NCBI GenBank assembly: GCA_029558435.1
Contig: JAKQEZ010000052.1
Span: 1-8,833, forward strand
Direction: 5' to 3'
From: Bacteroidota bacterium
Lineage (GTDB): Bacteria; Bacteroidota; Bacteroidia; Flavobacteriales; Crocinitomicaceae
DNA: 8,833 nt
The notes under the pieces were generated by a model. That model searched no databases and had not been told where the DNA came from. It saw only the letters and a list, made by a program, of their open reading frames with translations. The position numbers and the translations under genes were made by a program. Shown piece after piece: positions 1 through 8,704 of this stretch. Within the stretch, counting starts at the first letter, position 1. Each line of letters begins with the position of its first letter.

Positions 1-2607
1 CAAATTCAACAAATAAAAGGTGTAGCAGAGATTACTGTTTTAGGAGGAGAGGAAAGAGAAATACAAGTAAAAATAAATCAGGACAAACTGAAATTGTATA
101 AAATTTCAATGGTTCAGGTTGTTGAAGCAATTAATCGTTCTGGCTTAGACTTACCTGCTGGAAAGGTGCAAACCGAAAAAGAAAGTAATTCAGTTCGTTT
201 AACGGGAAAATTCACATCTATTGAGGATATTAAAAATGTCCAAGTCGCTATGCCTGTTTTAGGAAGTCCAGTTTATGTAAAAGACATAGCAGATGTAATT
301 GATGGTATAAAAGAAACAACTTCCATAAGTCGCTACAACGGTAAAAACGGCATTGGTTTAATGCTGAAAAAACAAGGAGATGCAAACGCAGTAGATGTTT
401 CAAAAGCAGTTCGGGAGAAATTTCAATCTATCGAACAACAAAATGCCAGTTCGGGTGTGAAATTTATTATTGCAGACGATAGCACCGACAACACGATTGC
501 AGCCGTTAATTCTGTAGTTTTTGATTTGATTTTAGCGGTGTTATTGGTCTCGTTAGTAATGCTTTTATTTCTACGAAGTTTTAGAAATTCATTAATCGTT
601 TTGGTAGCTATTCCAACATCTTTAGTTACCGCATTCGCTGTGATGTGGCTTTTGGGTTACACCTTAAACTTAATGACTTTGCTTGCAATGTCTTTAATCA
701 TTGGTATTTTGGTAGATGATGCTACCGTAGTTTTAGAAAACATTCAAAAGCACTTAGATAAAGGAAAAGACAAACGAACTGCTGCAATGGATGGCAGAAT
801 GGAAATTGGCTTTGCTGCATTATCCATCACCTTGGTTGATGTTGTGGTTTTCTTGCCTATTCTTTTTCTTCAAGTGTTTGTTGCTGATATGCTCAAGCAG
901 TTTTCGGTTGTAGTAGTAACTTCTACTCTCACCAGTTTATTGGTTGGTTTTACTTTAACGCCTTGGATGGCTTCTCGTATTGGCAAAAAAGAAGACTTAC
1001 AACCTACCAATTTTTTCAATCGCTTTTTACTATGGTTTGAAATTCAATTAGAAAACTTTAATGAATGGTATGGTCGCAAATTAGAATGGGTATTGAACCA
1101 TAAATTAGCTTTTACAGGTATCGTTATTGTGCTTTTTGCAATGACTTTAGGCATTATGAAACAAGGTATTATTGGTAAAGAATTAATTTCAACTGGCGAC
1201 CAAGGAAAATTTAGAATGGCATTAGAATTTGATAAGTCCACATCTATACATCAAAACAATTTAATTGCTCAAAAGATTGAAACATACATTATTCAACAAA
1301 CCGAAGTAGCAACGGTGTTCAGCAATATTGGCGGACCAAGCACTGGCATTGGAAGTTTGGGAGTAGGTTCAGCAAATAAAACGGAATTTACTATTCAATT
1401 AAAATCCAAAAAGGAATTGAATAATTTACCTACCGAAACATTTATGAAAAATCTTCGGGAAGAACTAAAGTCAAAATTTCCGAGTATCAATTATTCAATG
1501 GCAGCATTGGGTTTAATTCCACGTTCAGCACCAATTGAAATTACGTTAAGCGGTAGCAATTTGGACTTGGTGATGAAAACAGGCGATGAATTGAAAACGG
1601 TAATTGAAAAAATTCCCGGTGCGGATAATGTTCGCTTATCCGTTGAAGCAGGTAGCCCCGAATACAAAATAATTCCCGACAAGGATAAAATGCAACGATT
1701 GGGTTTAACAACGGCTTATGTTGGTTTGAACCTAAGAACAGCGTTTACAGGTAATGATGATGCAACCCTAACCGAAAACGGAACGGAATATCCTGTGCGA
1801 ATTTGGTTAGATGAATTTAGCAGACGAAATTTTGAAGATGTTCAACAACTTTCCATTATTAACCCAATGGGGATACCAGTTGAAATTTCACAATTTGCAA
1901 GCGTTGAGCAAGACAATTCTCCGTCATTGTTAGAACGAAAAGACCGACAACCAGCGGTTACTTTAACGGCAGACGCATTAGGCAGACCATCAGGAACTGT
2001 AGCAGACGATGTAGTAGCTTATCTAAAAGAAAATCCATTGCCAAACGGAATACAAATGACTTGGGGTAGCGACATCAAAAGACAGAATGATAGTTTTGGA
2101 GCATTAGGTTCTGTTTTACTCATTTCGTTTTTACTGATATACCTGATTATGGTAGCACTTTACGACAGTTTTATTTATCCATTTGTAGTATTATTTTCTA
2201 TTCCAGTAGCAGCAATTGGGGCATTTTTCGCTTTGAATTTGTCGTTAAGTAATTTGAGTTTATTCGCTTTATTGGGTTTAATTATGCTAATGGGCTTAGT
2301 GGTAAAAAACGCTATTCTAATTGTTGATTTTACCAATCAATTAAAAGCAGAAGGCATACATTTTAAAGAAGCCTTAATCATTGCAGGAAAGGGTCGTATG
2401 AGACCAATCCTAATGACAACCCTTTCAATGGTAGTTGGTATGCTTCCCATCGCAATGGCGACAGGAACAGCAGCAGAATGGAAAAACGGTTTGGCTTGGG
2501 TAATCATTGGCGGACTTCTATCATCTTTAATTTTGACCGTATTTTTAGTGCCAATGGTCTATTATTTAGTTGACACAGCAAAAGAAAAAATAAACAGAAG
2601 AAAATAG
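1..2607 (+). CDS. RND-family multidrug efflux permease (AcrB-like), N-terminus cut by window edge
   Basis: Inner-membrane proton-driven pump subunit, which would work with a periplasmic adaptor and an outer-membrane channel. The reading frame is open from base 1, so the true start lies upstream; the TTG at 94 is internal. The visible 868 residues begin in the porter region after TM1. By family length (about 1030-1060 aa) roughly the first 160-170 residues are missing. TM2-TM4 lie near residues 170-245, with the proton-relay pair in GILVDDATVVLENI (D239, D240). TM8-TM12 lie near 700-855, with the relay lysine in GLVVKNAILIV (K769), followed by RMRPILMTTLSM. The DD plus K set points to the HAE1-type drug and amphiphile pumps; substrate is unknown. 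The gene ends with TAG and a basic tail. It shows no sign of damage and appears to be the resident flank of the array downstream. Confidence 0.95.
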   Translation, partial: QIQQIKGVAEITVLGGEEREIQVKINQDKLKLYKISMVQVVEAINRSGLDLPAGKVQTEKESNSVRLTGKFTSIEDIKNVQVAMPVLGSPVYVKDIADVIDGIKETTSISRYNGKNGIGLMLKKQGDANAVDVSKAVREKFQSIEQQNASSGVKFIIADDSTDNTIAAVNSVVFDLILAVLLVSLVMLLFLRSFRNSLIVLVAIPTSLVTAFAVMWLLGYTLNLMTLLAMSLIIGILVDDATVVLENIQKHLDKGKDKRTAAMDGRMEIGFAALSITLVDVVVFLPILFLQVFVADMLKQFSVVVVTSTLTSLLVGFTLTPWMASRIGKKEDLQPTNFFNRFLLWFEIQLENFNEWYGRKLEWVLNHKLAFTGIVIVLFAMTLGIMKQGIIGKELISTGDQGKFRMALEFDKSTSIHQNNLIAQKIETYIIQQTEVATVFSNIGGPSTGIGSLGVGSANKTEFTIQLKSKKELNNLPTETFMKNLREELKSKFPSINYSMAALGLIPRSAPIEITLSGSNLDLVMKTGDELKTVIEKIPGADNVRLSVEAGSPEYKIIPDKDKMQRLGLTTAYVGLNLRTAFTGNDDATLTENGTEYPVRIWLDEFSRRNFEDVQQLSIINPMGIPVEISQFASVEQDNSPSLLERKDRQPAVTLTADALGRPSGTVADDVVAYLKENPLPNGIQMTWGSDIKRQNDSFGALGSVLLISFLLIYLIMVALYDSFIYPFVVLFSIPVAAIGAFFALNLSLSNLSLFALLGLIMLMGLVVKNAILIVDFTNQLKAEGIHFKEALIIAGKGRMRPILMTTLSMVVGMLPIAMATGTAAEWKNGLAWVIIGGLLSSLILTVFLVPMVYYLVDTAKEKINRRK

Positions 2608-2616
2608 CCATCGCAC

Positions 2617-2685
2617 AGGTGTAAGCACATTTGCAATTCGCACAAGCCAACGCACAGTCCAAAAATTGCAAAAGAGCTTACACCT
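2617..2685 (+). repeat. Long imperfect hairpin, left copy of a two-copy family
   Basis: Two 22-nt arms (2617-2638 and 2664-2685) pair at 20 of 22 positions around a 25-nt loop. The only two mismatches sit in GCACATT opposite AAAGAGC, giving A.A, C-G, A.A. The loop contains CGCACAAGCCAAC (2639-2651). A second hairpin at 8638-8704 has the same mismatches and loop motif but different stem bases. It starts 10 bp after the RND stop, so it could also help end that transcript, although no T-run follows directly. It may be a structured RNA or a folded-DNA target; function unknown. Confidence 0.85.
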
Positions 2686-2846: not shown

Positions 2847-2979
2847 TTATAACAGCGGTTTGGCAAAAGTGGCGGTTCAGTGCTTCGTATGACAATTTTT
2901 TGTATAATTGAAGTGCGGTTCTTCGCATAAAACTTTGTGGTGAAAATCGCCACCTTCGCCAAGCCGCAAAACGTTATCG
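2847..2979 (+). repeat. attC-like palindromic repeat, copy 1
   Basis: 133 bp, bounded by TTATAAC (2847-2853) and GTTATCG (2973-2979). Inner arms 2855-2874 and 2948-2967 pair at 17 of 20 positions. One unpaired base (A2854) on the left faces five (2968-2972) on the right, between outer and inner boxes. The centre is variable and contains a small CAATT/AATTG stem. Its left flank (GGCCAGCTTATAAC) does not match its own right flank beyond GTTAT, but does match the right flank of copy 3. Overall form and length resemble the large attC sites of chromosomal integrons such as the Vibrio VCR. Predicted crossover is between G2973 and T2974. The repeat is seen directly; the attC assignment is inference. 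Confidence 0.9.
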
Positions 2980-3020
2980 GATATTCTAAAACAACGACAG
3001 TGCAAACAATAAACTGACAA
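2973..3020 (+). promoter_or_regulatory. Cassette 1 leader with conserved CTAAAA and ACGACAGTGCAA
   Basis: A 48-bp leader between the repeat and the TTG start of the helicase gene. CTAAAA lies exactly 13 bases after the core G (2986-2991), as it does at 7385 and 8439 in the other two units. The 12-mer ACGACAGTGCAA (2994-3005) recurs at 8446-8457. There is no recognisable Bacteroidota promoter or Shine-Dalgarno sequence. It may be a conserved cassette 5' end or an untranslated leader; function unknown. Confidence 0.5.
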
Positions 3021-6000
3021 TTGGAAACAGTAGGACACCTAAATATTATTCAAGAGTTACAGCAACTTAACGACAACCTAACACTTTGGTTGACGGAGAG
3101 CAATGACGGGCAGATATTTGAGGTTTTGACAATCAAACAAAACAAGGAATACCAAACTTTACTTGACCGACTTCTTAAAAATGAAATTCTTCCGTTAGTC
3201 AACAAGGACATTGACGGCATACAAAAAATTATTCGTGCTGACTTTGACACGAAAACGAAAACTCACTATATCGTTTACCAGCACAACGACAATCTTCAAC
3301 CTATTTGCAACCCGACAATAAAAGCACTTAAATCTTTGTTGTCAGGGCTTGACAGTTTGAAGAAACAAAACCGTTTCGGTTTTGTGATTTCTGACGAAAC
3401 CATATTAACAAATCAAAGCGAAGCTTCGCTTCGCTTTGTAGGTTTATTTGAGTTATTCAAACAGCAGAACCTTCTCAATAAAAATTTTCTTGCACCCGAA
3501 CTATCAGACACAAGACCAAATTTTCAATCCGACATTTATTCTGTTTTCAAATGTTTTGAAGCTATTTTAGAAAGTAATCAAGATGAAACCTTGAAAGAGA
3601 TTTTTACAAAATCTCTTTCTGAAAAACGGACAAGCCGTTTTTCTAAGTATTCGGAAATTTTAGAGGAGCTTGAAAAGGTTAAGGTTACAGCAAATTCAAT
3701 TCATCGAAGCGGACAGACCGCTATCAAAGTTGTTGTAAAGTCAGAGGACAGAGAAACCTTTTTGCCAACACTTAATGAAATGAACAACACCTGTTATTTC
3801 TTACTTGAAAGAGACCTTTCCAAAGACAAAGGGCAAATCACAGGGCAATTTTCAACTAAAAATTATAGTGGTAGATTTTTTGCAGACACAGCCGGACACA
3901 TTTTTATTCCAGTTCAAGGAATAAAACGCCAACCTTTTGTTAAAGCCATTCAACAAGGGTTTATTTCTGATTACGGATTTGATTTTAATCCGGTGCAATA
4001 CTTTGACAGTTTCCGTTACTTCTACAACAAATGGGAACATCTAAATACAATTACGGAACTCAACCAAACAAAGCAGGACTTACTTAAAAAGTGGCAAACA
4101 CTTCCCGACCAAGAAAGAGAATTCATTGAAGAAAATGCTTTCAAAGCAAAATATATTGAACGTGAAGAAAGCACAAACAACCCTGCAAACATTCGGTTTA
4201 CGCTAACGGAAGAGTTTAGAAATTGGGATAAGTTGAAAGAATTGAAGCGAAACGAAGTGAACCTTTCCATTGATGATAAATTAATTGGAAAAATTCAGGA
4301 CTACAATCCTTCGGATTGTTTCCTTGTTATCAAAGACGCAAAAATTACAGTTGACGAAATTCCAGCGAATGGAGACTTGCTTCAAGATGTAAGAATGGAA
4401 ACAAGTCAATTCAAAAAGCAAGTTGAAGCGTGCAAAAAATTTGAAAATAAAGACATTGTTAATCCAGAGTTGTGCGGAATACTTGCCACACCTGAAAGAA
4501 TTCCCCAACCGAATAGAATTGATATTGACTATGATGGTTTCATTAAACAAGTCAAAAATAAAAATCTTAAAACAGACCAAACACAAAGAGAGGCAGTGCT
4601 TGAAGCACTGCATTACAAACCAGTTTATTTAATTCAAGGACCGCCAGGAACAGGTAAGACAACTGTAATAGTTGAACTCATTCAACAAATTATTTCACAA
4701 AACAGCAATGCAAAAATTTTAGTTACATCACAATCGAATTTAGCGGTTGACAATGTTTTGGAACGACTGCCCGAAAACATTTTGTTTATGCGTTTGGCAG
4801 CAGACGAGGACAGAATTAGCTATGATATAAAAGAACATTCATTTCAAAGCAAGCTCAAACATTGGGTAAAGGACACACAAGAAAACTCTACCGAGTTTTT
4901 TCAAAAGCACTTTCAAAGTAAGATTAAAGAAAAAGCATTAGTAACCTTTTACAACTTCTATTCAAACAACATCAGAACAGGAAATGAAACTGCCTTCGGC
5001 AGTTTTAATAATCTGTTGCGTATGCAGAACCAATATATCAAGGAACTATTTGGAAATGCAAAAAACTTCAAAGAGGTTGACCAAATCTTTAATGAAAAAT
5101 TAGGCAAAGAATTTCAGCAGTTAAAGACAATTCAAAAAGATTGGTTTGCTTTTCTTTCTAATGCAGACACAGACGAGGGAGCAAAGAAGAAGTCAATGCT
5201 AAATGACGGAAGCAACGAAATTGACTTGCGAACTGCATTTGTAAAATCTGTCAATGTTATTGGTGCAACTTGCATTCACATTGCAAGCAGTCAATACAGC
5301 AAAATCAATTTCCGTTTTGATTATGTGATAATGGACGAAAGCAGTAAAGCATCGCCAGCCGAAAATCTTGTTCCAATAAATATGGGTCAGAACATCATTT
5401 TGATTGGCGACCACAAGCAACTTCCACCAGTAATAACAAGAGAAGAAGCGGTAAAACAAAAAGTAAAAGACAAGTTAGAGGACAACGGACTTGATATTGA
5501 AAAAGAGTTTGGTGAAAGTTTATTTGAAAAACTGATTACAGCATTTGAAGCAAATGAGAATTTACACAGCTTCATAAAAATGTTAGACATTCAATATCGT
5601 ATGCCAAGACAAATTGGAAATTTGATTGGTAGGTTTTTCTACAACGGCAAATTGAAAAATCCTGACATCAAACTACTTCCAAACTTTGACAAGGATAAAT
5701 TTCACGAACTGAAATTCAAAATGCCAACTACTTCAATCTTTGACACAGCAACGGATAAAGAAATTGAAGTTCCTAATTCAGTTGTTTTTGTTAGTACTTC
5801 TAACCAACAAAATCCAAACGACAACGACAACAAATTTAACAGAAGTAATGAATGCAACAAAAACACGATTAAAGAAATATTAAAGCAACTTAACAAACTA
5901 TACCCAGACAATTTGAAAAGAGAAAAACCATTGACAATTGGAGTGATTGCTGGTTATAGAGGACAAGTAAATTTATTGAAAGACAGCATTGATTTACAAC

Positions 6001-6350
6001 TATACAAAAATTTCTTAAAGACAGACGAAGAAGGAAAAGCAGAAACATTGATTGAAATAAATACCGTAGATAAGTTTCAAGGAGCAGAAAGAGACATTAT
6101 CATTTACGACATCGTAAAAAGTAGTAAAGGCGGAAGTTCAATTGGCTTCCTTGATGACTACCGAAGAATAAATGTTGCCTTTTCACGAGTGAAAAGATTG
6201 TTGATTGTTGTTGGAGACAGCGAATATATTTTGAAAAGAGCAACACTAAATCCAAGCGGAAAATTTACAGAATTTAAACTCAAAGAAATTGTTGCAGAAC
6301 TTGACAGACAAGGAGTAATTGTTCACAGCTTAAACGAAATGATACAATGA
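3021..6350 (+). CDS. N-terminal pseudokinase fused to superfamily 1 (COG1112/DNA2-Upf1-like) helicase
   Basis: Predicted cytoplasmic ATP-dependent nucleic-acid helicase with a kinase-like sensor domain. Residues about 15-220 follow the protein-kinase fold: EVLTIK (K39), hinge-like YIVYQHND (83-90), APE (158-160) and SDIYS (170-174). Catalytic residues are lost: the HRD region reads FGFVISDETIL (119-129) and the DFG position reads VGLFE. Helicase motifs are intact: GPPGTGKT (540-547), MDESSKASP (DE 772-773), GDHKQLPP (796-803), QYRM (858-861), VDKFQGAERD (1016-1025), RRINVAFSR (1048-1056). The TTG start at 3021 is chosen because an in-frame TGA (3015-3017) lies just upstream and later starts would cut the kinase-like lobe. 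Its stop overlaps the next gene by four bases (ATGA), implying coupled translation. The kinase-helicase architecture recalls the helicase of Mokosh anti-phage systems; that function is inferred. Confidence 0.92.
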   Translation: METVGHLNIIQELQQLNDNLTLWLTESNDGQIFEVLTIKQNKEYQTLLDRLLKNEILPLVNKDIDGIQKIIRADFDTKTKTHYIVYQHNDNLQPICNPTIKALKSLLSGLDSLKKQNRFGFVISDETILTNQSEASLRFVGLFELFKQQNLLNKNFLAPELSDTRPNFQSDIYSVFKCFEAILESNQDETLKEIFTKSLSEKRTSRFSKYSEILEELEKVKVTANSIHRSGQTAIKVVVKSEDRETFLPTLNEMNNTCYFLLERDLSKDKGQITGQFSTKNYSGRFFADTAGHIFIPVQGIKRQPFVKAIQQGFISDYGFDFNPVQYFDSFRYFYNKWEHLNTITELNQTKQDLLKKWQTLPDQEREFIEENAFKAKYIEREESTNNPANIRFTLTEEFRNWDKLKELKRNEVNLSIDDKLIGKIQDYNPSDCFLVIKDAKITVDEIPANGDLLQDVRMETSQFKKQVEACKKFENKDIVNPELCGILATPERIPQPNRIDIDYDGFIKQVKNKNLKTDQTQREAVLEALHYKPVYLIQGPPGTGKTTVIVELIQQIISQNSNAKILVTSQSNLAVDNVLERLPENILFMRLAADEDRISYDIKEHSFQSKLKHWVKDTQENSTEFFQKHFQSKIKEKALVTFYNFYSNNIRTGNETAFGSFNNLLRMQNQYIKELFGNAKNFKEVDQIFNEKLGKEFQQLKTIQKDWFAFLSNADTDEGAKKKSMLNDGSNEIDLRTAFVKSVNVIGATCIHIASSQYSKINFRFDYVIMDESSKASPAENLVPINMGQNIILIGDHKQLPPVITREEAVKQKVKDKLEDNGLDIEKEFGESLFEKLITAFEANENLHSFIKMLDIQYRMPRQIGNLIGRFFYNGKLKNPDIKLLPNFDKDKFHELKFKMPTTSIFDTATDKEIEVPNSVVFVSTSNQQNPNDNDNKFNRSNECNKNTIKEILKQLNKLYPDNLKREKPLTIGVIAGYRGQVNLLKDSIDLQLYKNFLKTDEEGKAETLIEINTVDKFQGAERDIIIYDIVKSSKGGSSIGFLDDYRRINVAFSRVKRLLIVVGDSEYILKRATLNPSGKFTEFKLKEIVAELDRQGVIVHSLNEMIQ
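3365..3385. repeat. Perfect 9-bp hairpin inside pseudokinase coding region
   Basis: ACAAAACCG and CGGTTTTGT pair perfectly around a TTT loop. It falls in the codons of the segment that replaces the kinase catalytic loop. It is one of seven short perfect hairpins noted in this gene. Confidence 0.7.
3414..3438. repeat. Perfect 11-bp hairpin with TTC loop inside pseudokinase coding region
   Basis: CAAAGCGAAGC (3414-3424) and GCTTCGCTTTG (3428-3438) pair perfectly around TTC. It encodes residues around QSEASLRF, between the degenerate catalytic loop and the degenerate DFG position. It is the strongest of the in-gene hairpins and is GC-richer than its surroundings. Confidence 0.8.
3621..3643. repeat. 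Perfect 9-bp hairpin inside helicase-fusion gene
   Basis: GAAAAACGG (3621-3629) and CCGTTTTTC (3635-3643) pair perfectly around ACAAG. It lies near the C-terminal end of the kinase-like domain (residues about 201-208). Confidence 0.7.
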
Positions 6351-7252
6351 GCAAGGAGCAAAACAAACCGCAACAAAAATTCCAAAGGGAGTTTACGATG
6401 TTCAAAGACAATCGTAAACCCGACTTTGAATTAAAAACCATTTTTGAAATCTATTTGCCATTTTGGTTTTGCAGACAGAATGTAGTTGTTGAAAGAGAAA
6501 TAGAATTAGACCGTTTCAGCAAAATCATTTTGCAAACTATTCAAAATGGTTTTACCAAACATTCTGAAGTGTGTGATTTTTTAGGAGTAGAAACAAATTC
6601 ATTTGTAACAACCCAATTTCATTTTCTCCTCAAAAATGGATTGCTGAATGAAACACCAATCAGCAACGACACAGAATATGAAATCACTTTTGAAGGCTTC
6701 GCTTTCCTCGACAGGAAAAAGAAAATAACAGCAGTTGAAACAGTTGATTTTGAATATTTCTACAACGACTTAACACTTGAATTTTTGGACAAGCACCGCT
6801 TTGATTTTGTAGTAAACGACTTGACAAAAGAGTTTGTGGACACAAGCAAACCGCTTGACACTAAAAACATTTCAGAGGGAAAGAGAGCAAAGTTTTCGGG
6901 CTATCAAGTTTTACAAACAAACTTGCTTCCACCAAACAGAATTGAAATTCCGCACAAGAACAAACCTTATAATCTCAACAAAGTTGAGTTTGCAAACTTC
7001 TTCAACAAACAGTTTCAAGACAAATCATTTTATGACTTTGAAAGTAACAACATTGAAACGCATAAGCGTTCTATTTGCTTTTTAGCTTTTGAATATGAGG
7101 ACAACACAGGAGTTAAAATATATGACATCAGACATTTCAAAAAAACAGTAAAAGAATTTGATCGACACGAATTAGAGGAAAAACTAACTAAGCAGACGAC
7201 TGACTTTTACAAGAAAAATCCCTTGACGAATGGAGAGAAGAACATCCGATAA
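6347..7252 (+). CDS. Unrecognised 301-aa partner of the helicase with a probable winged-helix segment
   Basis: I do not recognise the family. The ATG overlaps the helicase stop (ATGA), so the two are almost certainly co-translated and probably act together. There is no signal peptide or membrane segment. Residues about 50-130 look like a winged helix: helices around RFSKIILQTIQNGFTKHSEVCDFLGV and a second helix ending FLLKNGLLNE, then a beta-wing-like YEITFEGFAFLDRKKK. The rest is charged, with many aromatic residues. I find no HxK(x)4D phospholipase-D motif, which is expected of the Mokosh partner, and no other catalytic signature I can name. The stop codon TAA (7250-7252) lies within the inverse core of repeat 2, and the last codons are fixed by the site, so the C-terminus may have been cut or set at cassette formation. 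Possible roles are nucleic-acid sensor or effector for the helicase. Confidence 0.88.
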   Translation: MSKEQNKPQQKFQREFTMFKDNRKPDFELKTIFEIYLPFWFCRQNVVVEREIELDRFSKIILQTIQNGFTKHSEVCDFLGVETNSFVTTQFHFLLKNGLLNETPISNDTEYEITFEGFAFLDRKKKITAVETVDFEYFYNDLTLEFLDKHRFDFVVNDLTKEFVDTSKPLDTKNISEGKRAKFSGYQVLQTNLLPPNRIEIPHKNKPYNLNKVEFANFFNKQFQDKSFYDFESNNIETHKRSICFLAFEYEDNTGVKIYDIRHFKKTVKEFDRHELEEKLTKQTTDFYKKNPLTNGEKNIR

Positions 7253-7378
7253 CACGGGTTTGGCAAAAGTGGCGGTTCAGTGCTCCGCAGACACATTTGT
7301 GGTTAATCAAAGTTTGGTTCTCCGCATCAACATTTGTGGTGAAAAACGCCACCTTCGCCAAGTCCGAAACCGTTAGCG
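7247..7378 (+). repeat. attC-like palindromic repeat, copy 2
   Basis: 132 bp, bounded by CGATAAC (7247-7253) and GTTAGCG (7372-7378). The arms share TTTGGCAAAAGTGGCGG and GCCACCTTCGCCAAG with copy 1, and the same 1-versus-5 unpaired spacing recurs (A7254 on the left). The inner box differs in sequence from copy 1 but keeps partial pairing. The centre has its own CACATTTGTG hairpin and differs from copies 1 and 3. The left flank matches the start of cassette 1 and the right flank matches the end of cassette 2. Predicted crossover is G7372/T7373. Confidence 0.9.
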
Positions 7379-8426
7379 GTCAGGCTAAAAAAACCGAACG
7401 TAAAACAAAAATTGACAATCAAAAATGACGAAATTTAGTTGGGACATTATTCAAAAACAATCAGACGAAATTTTATCGTGTGGACTTAACAAATTGAAAA
7501 CTCAACCGTTTTGCGACACTTCGACAGTAAGTGAAAAAGGGTTTGGAAATTACCTAATATCGCTTGACAAAGTTCCGTTTTATGTTGGAGAAGGAAAAGA
7601 ACTTATTAAAAGACTTAAACAACAATTCAAGCCAACAACATCAACTTTTTACAAGAATTTTGAGAAACTAAATTCTACAAATCAACTTGCAAAATCTACG
7701 ACAATTGACAAATTTAAAATTCAATTTATTTCGACAAATATTGGACGAAAAGAAGTAGAAGAATTTGGAATTGTAAACTTGCCAACAAAACTTAACGGCT
7801 TCCAACTTGACAAACGGAAAAAGTTTGCGATTGCAGACCAGAAAGGACTTTGGAATGCTGTTCAAGAAAATTATTTACAACTTTTAGAAGAAGGCGAAAT
7901 TAAAATCCTAAAAGCGACTTTTACTTCTTGGTTTGACGCAAAAATTGTTAGTTCGGCTGGACTTTATCTTGTGAAAGACAAATCAAACAAACTAATTTAT
8001 ATAGGAGAAAGTTCCGACATTGGAGAGCGAATAAAAACTCATAGCGGACGAACATATTTTTCTGCACTTAGGAGACATATAGGAACTGACATTCTAGGAT
8101 TTGAACTTCAAGAAATTAAAGGTAAAAAACGGTATTTTAACGAAATAGAAGACAGAAAAGTAACTGAATTTTTAAAAACGTGTAAAGTGACACTTTTTCC
8201 AGTTGCATTTGGACGTTATGAATTGGAAGAATATTTAATAAAAAAACACAGACCATTCTTAAATCGAAAAGACAATAAAGATTAATAAACAAGCCCGAAC
8301 CGCTAACAGCAGTTTGGCTAAATGGCGGGTTCAGTGCTACATTGAACATTTGGTTTTTAAATGAATATTAGCGCTAAAATGAAAGTAAGTGCTTCTAAAT
8401 CCGCCACTTCGCCAAGCTGCAAAACG
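7373..8426 (+). mobile_element. Putative integron-type gene cassette 2 (tandem GIY-YIG protein)
   Basis: A 1.05-kb unit between the proposed crossovers of repeats 2 and 3. It is a typical cassette size, with a single gene in the same direction as the repeats, a 5' leader of under 50 bp and 15 bp between the stop codon and the inverse core. Its start GTTAGCGGT (with the shared G) is the exact complement of its end ACCGCTAAC (8299-8307), and GGCT/AGCC matches continue with a one-base shift. CTAAAA is present 13 bases after the core G. The leader to the ATG (7379-7424) is A-rich with no Shine-Dalgarno sequence or clear promoter. Confidence 0.55.
7425..8285 (+). CDS. Protein with two tandem GIY-YIG nuclease domains
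   Basis: Probable DNA-cleaving (or formerly cleaving) protein of 286 aa made almost entirely of two GIY-YIG folds. Domain 1: NYL (42-44), FYVGEG (52-57), R63, and VEEFGIVNLPTKLN (E112, N124). Domain 2: GLYLV (179-183), IYIGES (191-196), R202, and LEEYLIKKHRPFLN (E268, N280). Both domains appear to keep the family's two tyrosines, arginine, glutamate and asparagine, and the two C-terminal segments align without gaps. A linker of about 50 residues (125-175) separates them. There is no separate DNA-binding or membrane region. Known GIY-YIG families include UvrC, homing endonucleases and some restriction enzymes, most with one such domain; this one fits none that I can name. ATG at 7425 follows an A-rich leader. 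It sits alone in its cassette. A defence or restriction role is only inferred. Confidence 0.9.
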   Translation: MTKFSWDIIQKQSDEILSCGLNKLKTQPFCDTSTVSEKGFGNYLISLDKVPFYVGEGKELIKRLKQQFKPTTSTFYKNFEKLNSTNQLAKSTTIDKFKIQFISTNIGRKEVEEFGIVNLPTKLNGFQLDKRKKFAIADQKGLWNAVQENYLQLLEEGEIKILKATFTSWFDAKIVSSAGLYLVKDKSNKLIYIGESSDIGERIKTHSGRTYFSALRRHIGTDILGFELQEIKGKKRYFNEIEDRKVTEFLKTCKVTLFPVAFGRYELEEYLIKKHRPFLNRKDNKD

Positions 8427-8432
8427 TTATAA
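8301..8432 (+). repeat. attC-like palindromic repeat, copy 3
   Basis: 132 bp, bounded by CGCTAAC (8301-8307) and GTTATAA (8426-8432). It shares the 5' arm (TTTGGC, TGGCGG, GTTCAGTGCT) and the 3' arm (CGCCACTTCGCCAAGC) with the other copies. The inner box is GCAG/CTGC where copy 1 has GCGG/CCGC, a compensatory change. The 1-versus-5 spacer asymmetry is again present. The centre (8337-8400) is unrelated in sequence and includes TAGCGCTA. Its right flank (GTTATAAGC..GCCT) is the complement of the left flank of copy 1. Confidence 0.88.
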
Positions 8433-8637
8433 GCAAGCCTAAAAGACGACAGTGCAACCATAAACAGACGACTAAAAACTGAACATTAATACAAAAGCAA
8501 ACCATTTCGACAAGTGACCAACATACAGACCATATTTCAAACGGACAACGAGTAAGCCGACACTCATTGCCGACCCTTCTGTATTTTTTATTTTCCCCAC
8601 CGCACATTTTTTTTAATTCAATTTTAGCCAGCCGCAC
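8433..8637. other. ORF-less start of a third unit
   Basis: No credible coding frame on either strand. The first 40 bp resemble the leader of cassette 1: CTAAAA at 8439-8444, 13 bases after the core G, then ACGACAGTGCAA at 8446-8457 followed by a shared ATAAAC. After that come short T-rich tracts (8583-8594, 8607-8614) and no further recognisable signal. This may be a cassette that lost its gene, a non-coding cassette, or the chromosomal sequence beyond the array. Confidence 0.55.
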
Positions 8638-8704
8638 AAATGGCACATTGGCTTTTGCCCCTAACGCACAAGCCAACCCTTCGGCAAAAGCCAAAGAGCC
8701 ATTT
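8638..8704 (+). repeat. Long imperfect hairpin, right copy of a two-copy family
   Basis: Arms 8638-8659 and 8683-8704 pair at 20 of 22 positions around a 23-nt loop. The two mismatches are in GCACATT opposite AAAGAGC, identical to the hairpin at 2617-2685, while most stem bases differ and still pair. The loop holds the same CGCACAAGCCAAC (8665-8677). The 3' arm runs into six T residues (8702-8707), so this copy could act as an intrinsic terminator, but the conserved mismatches and loop suggest a more specific role. Confidence 0.85.

Follow-up and report, generated by a model that had tools for sequence, protein, structure and literature searches.

The 8,833-nucleotide window analyzed here (positions 1 to 8,833 of contig JAKQEZ010000052.1, assembly GCA_029558435.1), from a Bacteroidota bacterium of the Crocinitomicaceae, carries three imperfect palindromes that bound two gene units. 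This raises the question of whether the units are integron cassettes and, if so, what kind of recombinase moves them. A preliminary description of the sequence had proposed a divergent integron or a separate single-stranded DNA hairpin recombination system. The comparisons below support that proposal: the window very probably holds two cassettes of an integron-type Bacteroidota system whose likely recombinases form a clade other than IntI, and the recombinase, docking motif and site family (the last as judged with a small model) differ from those of IntI integrons. Judged from sequence, the system works like an integron, and by the features tested it is not an IntI integron.

As had been described, the three palindromes (S1 to S3; Table 1) lie on one strand, and they bound units of 4399 and 1054 bp; the S1–S2 and S2–S3 repeat spacings are 4399/4400 and 1054, and the three repeats align with 79% mean column identity. 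A length of 132 bp had been given for each; measured from TAAC to GTTA, excluding the outer cores, they are 126–127 bp long. A structural caller, counting both strands, also found three sites in the window. The start of unit 1, GTTATCGGAT, is complementary to its own end, ATCCGATAAC, and the start of unit 2, GTTAGCGGT, to its own end, ACCGCTAAC. The two flanks of S1 do not match each other, and the same is true of S2.

How far this pairing exceeds chance was estimated from the matching run after GTTA in adjacent sites on one strand; the first 56 such pairs in the fetched loci, both window pairs among them, were scored. Their mean run was 2.54. With shuffled partners it was 0.73, none of 2000 shuffles exceeding 1.30, and when a site was compared with its own other flank it was 0.64. 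Twenty of the 56 pairs matched over 5–6 nt. The claim that a unit's own ends are complementary and a palindrome's flanks unlike holds in the window and, beyond chance, in the larger sample. An improved caller, for which a core match means GTTR plus at least 4, showed matches for 153 of the 204 viral-contig units, 89 of the 105 genome-contig units and 61 of the 73 units near recombinases, as well as for 212 of 231 units below 1200 bp in a giant array described below. The base after GTT is A or G and agrees across 229 of the 231 giant-array units, giving a family core of CGTTR; of the core earlier described as GTTA-conserved, the GTT part stands and the fixed A does not. The RRY of the classical core is not conserved in the giant-array units.

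The sites are abundant, structured and, in the window, intergenic, as would also be expected of a palindromic repeat family between genes, such as a miniature inverted-repeat transposable element (MITE), a repetitive extragenic palindrome or a terminator. Cores pair across units and not within a site, however: self-matching flanks of single sites numbered 12 of 301, compared with 6.4 after shuffling (maximum 14), which is not above chance. Strand is constant (319 sites vs 1 in the giant array), and whole cassettes are duplicated beside new neighbors. We regard a repeat family as having a negligible probability. The MITE reading in particular fits neither the structure of the units nor the shuffling of whole cassettes, target duplications not having been searched for.

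For characterization of the site family, a covariance model (R1) was built from 96 sites. In their alignment, TAAC/GTTA goes with a 1 × 5 spacer and a stem of 10 bp, A × C oppositions flank two pairs, and there is an inner stem. Pairing held in 92.0% of cells, whereas sliding left no more than 42.4% paired. Both sides had changed in 17 of 22 pairs, and the covariation score was 0.435, vs 0.108 shuffled and at most 0.076 slid. These sites were gathered with arm patterns, which favor pairing in part of the 10-bp stem; columns beyond the patterns covary too (14/146 in 86, 15/145 in 90, 27/133 in 86 and 28/132 in 87 of the 96 sites), which bears out the folded site of the preliminary description. 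Three A × C oppositions are conserved (in 96, 69 and 85 of the 96 sites) and read as T·G on the other strand. As in integrons, the arms fold more stably as the bottom strand (254 of 278 distinct sites). Classical attC sites recombine via the bottom strand, according to the accessible text of one study (PMC2727003), and the covariation and arm stability seen here are compatible with recombination as a folded bottom single strand. Unlike classical attC, the Bacteroidota site has the 1 × 5 spacer and the conserved A × C oppositions, and the 96-site consensus shows a 10-bp stem free of extrahelical bases on the L″ arm, the spacer providing the asymmetry, although single sites may deviate. The variable end inside long sites (alignment A2) contains imperfect repeats of ~22 nt such as GAACATTTGTGCTTCTATT, read by eye; these may explain the length classes.

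A search for the arms returned at least 120 stretches in viral contigs with the right-arm pattern and at least 118 in genome contigs with the left-arm pattern; among 80 genome titles listed, 79 were of Bacteroidota taxa, including Flavobacterium silvisoli, Algoriphagus aquimarinus and Hymenobacter siberiensis, and one was of a metagenome-assembled genome (MAG) called Proteobacteria. In a sample of 296 genomes from across the phylum Bacteroidota, where the sites are evidently common, 120 matched R1; of 249 Pseudomonadota genomes, one did. That single positive, the Proteobacteria-labelled MAG (L178/G016), has three sites, which may reflect either contamination or transfer.

The largest array seen lies on the chromosome of MAG SSA2 (CP058707.1, G002), with sites at 3,475,741–3,982,497, ~507 kb of 4.27 Mb. 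In 540 kb of this chromosome R1 gave 354 matches at E up to 0.01, the 300 listed all being on the minus strand, and the structural caller, which is independent of R1, gave 319 sites, with one on the other strand and one in a shuffled control. The 280 units of 150–2500 bp have a median of 691 bp, and the main open reading frame (ORF) follows the site direction in 191 of 215 units. Near-identical full-length cassettes form 106 pairs (128 cassettes), of which 100 have unlike downstream neighbors. In pairs selected to be alike inside and unlike outside, identity breaks at CGTT on both sides (70 left and 64 right boundaries); the break falls within CGTT, and the exact bond is not readable from it. 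Re-neighbored cassettes with such breaks are the pattern expected from site-specific shuffling, so that the cassette array suspected in the window is borne out here on a chromosomal scale. Among the models matched by cargo (100 cassette proteins scanned of 126 usable distinct ones) are PIN, ParE, GmrSD, AbiH, a CD-NTase-type cyclase, HEC-05, PD-Lambda-1 and TIR. The MkoA-like helicase of the window fits this defense cargo. An Arr-like ADP-ribosyltransferase is encoded by a cassette close to the giant array's 5′ end (L280:1173-1745). Integrons, Vibrio superintegrons included, likewise combine genes and folded sites in cassettes with complementary ends and GTTR preceded by C, a docking site by the integrase gene, giant chromosomal arrays, and defense and toxin–antitoxin cargo. 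Up to 301 cassettes, or 3% of the genome, are reported for Vibrio in the accessible part of one article (PMC11023631), fewer than the 319–354 sites of the largest Bacteroidota array.

The search for a recombinase near larger arrays, also suggested at the outset, led to a clade of tyrosine recombinases separate from IntI, usually encoded upstream on the same strand and likely to be the enzymes of the system. Sites were present in 11 of 13 fetched recombinase neighborhoods, mostly downstream on the recombinase strand; at L290, one of two sites is upstream. Conversely, among 118 genome stretches picked by the site pattern and nothing else, 12 encoded such a recombinase at over 390 bits, of which at least two also belong to A3, the recombinase profile. 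With A3 at E up to 1e-70, a threshold of our choosing, 94 of the 296 genomes were positive, made up of 71 of the 120 genomes with sites and 23 of the 176 without (odds ratio 9.6, p = 8e-17). A form with extra N-terminal modules (55 of the 94) was more closely tied to sites (48 of 120 vs 7 of 176, odds ratio 16.1). True IntI, present above its cut-off in 84 of 296 genomes, showed the reverse (23 of 120 vs 61 of 176, odds ratio 0.45, p = 0.004). Among 138 sites listed outside G002, 37 lay within 15 kb of a recombinase, 34 of them downstream on the same strand. For IntI, one position per genome was checked, 23 in all, and none of the 138 sites lay within 15 kb of any.

If the first cassette is inserted at an attI, its opening core is expected between the recombinase gene and the first site. 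Of 41 loci, 36 had the first cassette's 9-nt core behind the recombinase gene (32 of 36 without genes fetched twice), with 0.35 expected. Twenty-six distinct docking sites lie 12–249 bp past the recombinase stop and have the common motif TATAARNRA|GTTR. A docking site beside the integrase gene is shared with integron attI, the motif being different. The orientation differs as well: in class 1 integrons the integrase gene is divergent from the array, whereas here it is mostly co-directional.

The recombinase might be a passenger, the sites being moved by the host XerCD or another enzyme. The clade is close to XerA-type enzymes, and 49 of the 120 site-bearing genomes have no strong recombinase match, nine of them with six or more sites. 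Against this stand the docking sites with their common motif and the placement of 34 of 37 near sites downstream on the recombinase strand, and we consider a passenger role very unlikely. The missing matches also weigh against assigning the arrays to this clade, as do several further points. The window itself contains no recombinase gene. In two of the 13 fetched neighborhoods there is no site, L289 and L291 have weak sites only (33.9–49.7 bits), and the array at L283 is divergent from its recombinase. Module-free recombinases are weakly associated with sites (23 of 120 vs 16 of 176, odds ratio 2.4, p = 0.014). The odds ratios come from a profile built mostly from array neighbors, so that its source and threshold both favor association, and from related genomes whose kinship the tests ignore. 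In the giant array, itself part of a MAG, no attI motif lies directly behind the recombinase, and the first core is 2.6 kb downstream. As to the strand, whole sites are more stable as the bottom strand in just 192 of 278 cases, and in one of the three window sites; a T·G pair at columns 17/143 (71 of 96 sites) is a mismatch on the bottom strand and favors the top strand. With these points taken into account, the integron-type reading with a non-IntI recombinase is still the one we hold to be very probable.

Comparison with true integrons was made with both sites and enzymes. A home-made classical attC model (R2) was built from 9 sites of 2 IntI loci; three rounds of collecting classical sites yielded 12 rows (6 correctly oriented), one row, and fourteen from 4 of 20 loci. 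Of the 20 IntI loci, 8 gave R2 matches, 39 in total, with both strands of a single site matching in some cases; the window and 8 array stretches gave none at E up to 10. R1 had no match in the 20 IntI loci. Since R2 is small (2 training loci), this split is only weak supporting evidence, and the covariance check proposed in the preliminary description was carried out in this limited form, the window sites going unrecognized. By profile TIGR02249, none of 15 site-bearing hosts, and then none of 8 more (one being the Proteobacteria-labelled MAG), had a protein above the cut-off. The best matches in all 15 span both halves of the profile and skip its middle; six array-clade recombinases score 178–226 against a cut-off of 265.

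These data bear on an alternative account, in which the window is an ordinary cluster of attC sites lacking an integrase (CALIN), with classical sites served by the true IntI of other Bacteroidota or in trans. IntI is common enough in the sampled genomes, and attC sites are described as variable, with pairing past the R boxes to 9–11 nt and C usually before GTT (PMC2727003, accessible text). In addition, IntI1 recombined one of two tested attC sites of a Polaribacter phage, according to the part of the article available (PMC9892861). That phage has no match to R1, R1 and R2 each miss the other's sites, and the negative association with IntI, together with the absence of sites near it, argues further against an ordinary CALIN, which we judge to be very unlikely.

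The sequences of the clade recombinases were then compared with those of known enzymes, using an alignment of 17 clade recombinases, 22 IntI and 11 Xer for the insertion. The IntI-specific insertion is absent from all 17 clade recombinases, which have 1 residue in the 32 insert columns, vs 32–33 in all 22 IntI. Columns with R, K, H, R, H and Y are invariant in 14 of 14 clade recombinases, and we assign these as the probable catalytic residues. The best Protein Data Bank sequence matches are archaeal Xer (147.7 and 139.6 bits), then IntI4 (125.1). Six clade proteins score 199.7–217.6 with NCBIfam NF040815, just below its cut-off of 220. Public names of some clade proteins include ‘site-specific tyrosine recombinase/integron integrase’ and ‘XerD’. 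In a first tree, 16 of the 17 clade recombinases group together (95/78), as do IntI (100/100) and XerC/D (100/99). A second tree added two archaeal XerA, E. coli XerD and two viral-contig enzymes; host and viral-contig enzymes group (98/95), and the clade, IntI and two unclassified enzymes are split from XerC/D and XerA (98/93). The clade thus resembles XerA, XerC and XerD in being simple tyrosine recombinases without the IntI insertion, and differs from them in its place in the tree and in occurring at cassette arrays with docking sites. The trees are unrooted; with a root among Xer, the insertion would most simply be a gain on the IntI branch, and the system is possibly the form before that insertion. 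Two other Bacteroidota recombinases of ~280–290 amino acids (L347, L348), also without the insertion, fall beside IntI and the clade in the trees.

Many clade recombinases carry an N-terminal module of ~70 extra residues, repeated up to three times. Pfam HARP gave 17.8 bits on one module (cut-off 25), and the predicted structure of one module (predicted local distance difference test score of 85) most resembled the XPB N-terminal part (E 0.008) and the HARP domain of SMARCAL1 (E 0.12). A HARP/XPB-like identity is suggestive only, because the Pfam score is below its cut-off and the fold matches are above E 0.001. The HARP structure entry is titled as a substrate recognition domain, and HARP and XPB both bind unusual DNA; the modules would help to recognize the folded site.

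A course of events can be proposed from what is read in the sequences, namely the sites, the pairing of their cores, their covariation, order and strand, the docking position, the shuffled cassettes and the association with the recombinase. A cassette would consist of a gene or operon plus one attC-like site, and the recombinase gene would usually sit immediately ahead of the array and in the same orientation, with an attI-like docking site behind it; the enzyme form most tied to sites would have one to three putative HARP/XPB-like modules. The bottom strand of the site would fold, turning the top-strand A × C oppositions into T·G pairs, and the recombinase would cut within CGTT, most likely at G|TT. 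The excised cassette would form a circle, bringing its two complementary cores opposite one another, and would re-enter at attI or another site. We infer the chemistry, the strand used, the circle and the role of the modules, as well as the presence of a recombinase in the window's host.

Integron activity is usually tied to IntI with its extra domain, and surveys target IntI and classical attC. With sites in 120 of 296 genomes, the system may be largely unseen as a result. Integrons have been reported in Bacteroidota, as stated in the accessible text of one article (PMC8618304), and IntegronFinder 2.0 is described, in the text available, as yielding one complete Bacteroidota integron, in Salinibacter, with previously only In0 elements (PMC9024848). 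The 11 taxon models of attC in the available part of another article do not cover Bacteroidota (PMC8352920). No description of these arrays, or of the clade recombinase as an integron integrase, was found in the full-text literature searched, with preprints and most subscription papers outside the search. We lean toward the system being a second integron lineage, in Bacteroidota and their phages, whose recombinase never gained the IntI insertion and reads folded DNA via HARP/XPB-like modules. It would be either a surviving pre-insertion stage or an independent origin from Xer-like enzymes, with a phage branch of turned gene polarity. With this system, the purpose of the IntI insertion would become directly testable. 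The system would also supply cassette recombination with a second type of enzyme and give access to a large store of defense and toxin–antitoxin cassettes, and one site family would connect hosts and phages.

Polarity was compared between viral contigs (L001–L120 and L400) and genome contigs (L121–L238). The main ORF opposes the site in 93 of 105 viral-contig units and follows it in 71 of 80 genome-contig units; by contig majority, 44 of 51 viral contigs run against the site and 34 of 40 genome contigs with it. The median unit is 379 bp in viral contigs vs 731 bp in genome contigs. Three viral contigs encode a short A3-matching recombinase (265–277 amino acids; Table 1) without the N-terminal module and divergent from the nearby sites, which begin on the opposite strand, from the 5′ end of the recombinase. 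Flavobacterium phage mumin6-1 (L400, 2343–7759) has ten sites with DNA methyltransferase genes among them; seven of nine units have matching cores, and one further unit has a single mismatch. Phage CALINs with methyltransferase cassettes are likewise described from Bacteroidota phages in the accessible text of Qi et al. 2023 (PMC9892861). Phage P12002L, unlike mumin6-1, has no site of the new family.

Table 1. Features of the window and recombinase genes of viral contigs. Sites S1–S3 were in the training set of R1; unit boundaries were placed at G|TT by analogy.
Feature	Position	Strand	Remarks
RND efflux gene	1-2607		precedes site array
attC-like site S1 (TAAC...CGTTA)	2850..2976	+	114.5 bits with R1
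attC-like site S2	7250..7375	+	closes unit 1; 109.1 bits with R1
attC-like site S3	8304..8429	+	closes unit 2; 119.3 bits with R1
Cassette unit 1	2974..7372	+	4399 bp
Cassette unit 2	7373..8426	+	1054 bp
MkoA-like SF1 helicase gene (Mokosh anti-phage system)	3021..6350	+	unit 1; 1109 aa, listed start TTG
Second gene of unit 1	6347..7252	+	301 aa; weak MkoB match
GIY-YIG domain protein gene	7425..8285	+	unit 2; 286 aa; PF20815 E 3.1e-12, PF01541 E 2.3e-10
Core opening unit 1	2973..2982	+	GTTATCGGAT
Core closing unit 1	7244..7253	+	ATCCGATAAC
Core opening unit 2	7372..7380	+	GTTAGCGGT
Core closing unit 2	8299..8307	+	ACCGCTAAC
Viral-contig short recombinases	L066:4183-5013, L067:4735-5562, L105:9459-10253		A3 match; two placed in tree 2

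The helicase of unit 1 matches PADLOC MkoA (E 1.2e-134) and contains AAA_11/AAA_12 domains. Its partner gene is short and weakly MkoB-like, unlike that of Mokosh (PADLOC MkoB, E 4.3e-6, model positions 5–159 of 610 only), and had no match in a Pfam scan at 0.001. The TAA stop of this second gene is the TAA of the TAAC of S2 (window 7250–7253). No relative of the GIY-YIG gene of unit 2 was found in viral contigs. Two weak matches came from an Rfam scan (E 0.054 and 0.93), both of them away from the sites. A search of plasmid records gave no match, and one of phage records returned 13 Flavobacterium phage records, with 24% of the query covered.

The left core of S1, CTTATAAC, was assigned to the preceding unit or to host DNA. 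The outermost cores (left of S1, 2846–2853; right of S3, 8426–8434) are complementary over GTTATAAGC and look as though a single older site had received two cassettes, self-matches across sites not being above chance. Two long inverted repeats flank the array (window 2617–2685 and 8638–8704) and share a motif, which reads CGCACAAGCCAAC in one repeat and ACGCACAAGCCAAC in its counterpart. A similar motif, ACACAAGCCAACGC, sits in the loop of a short site class of ~77 bp.

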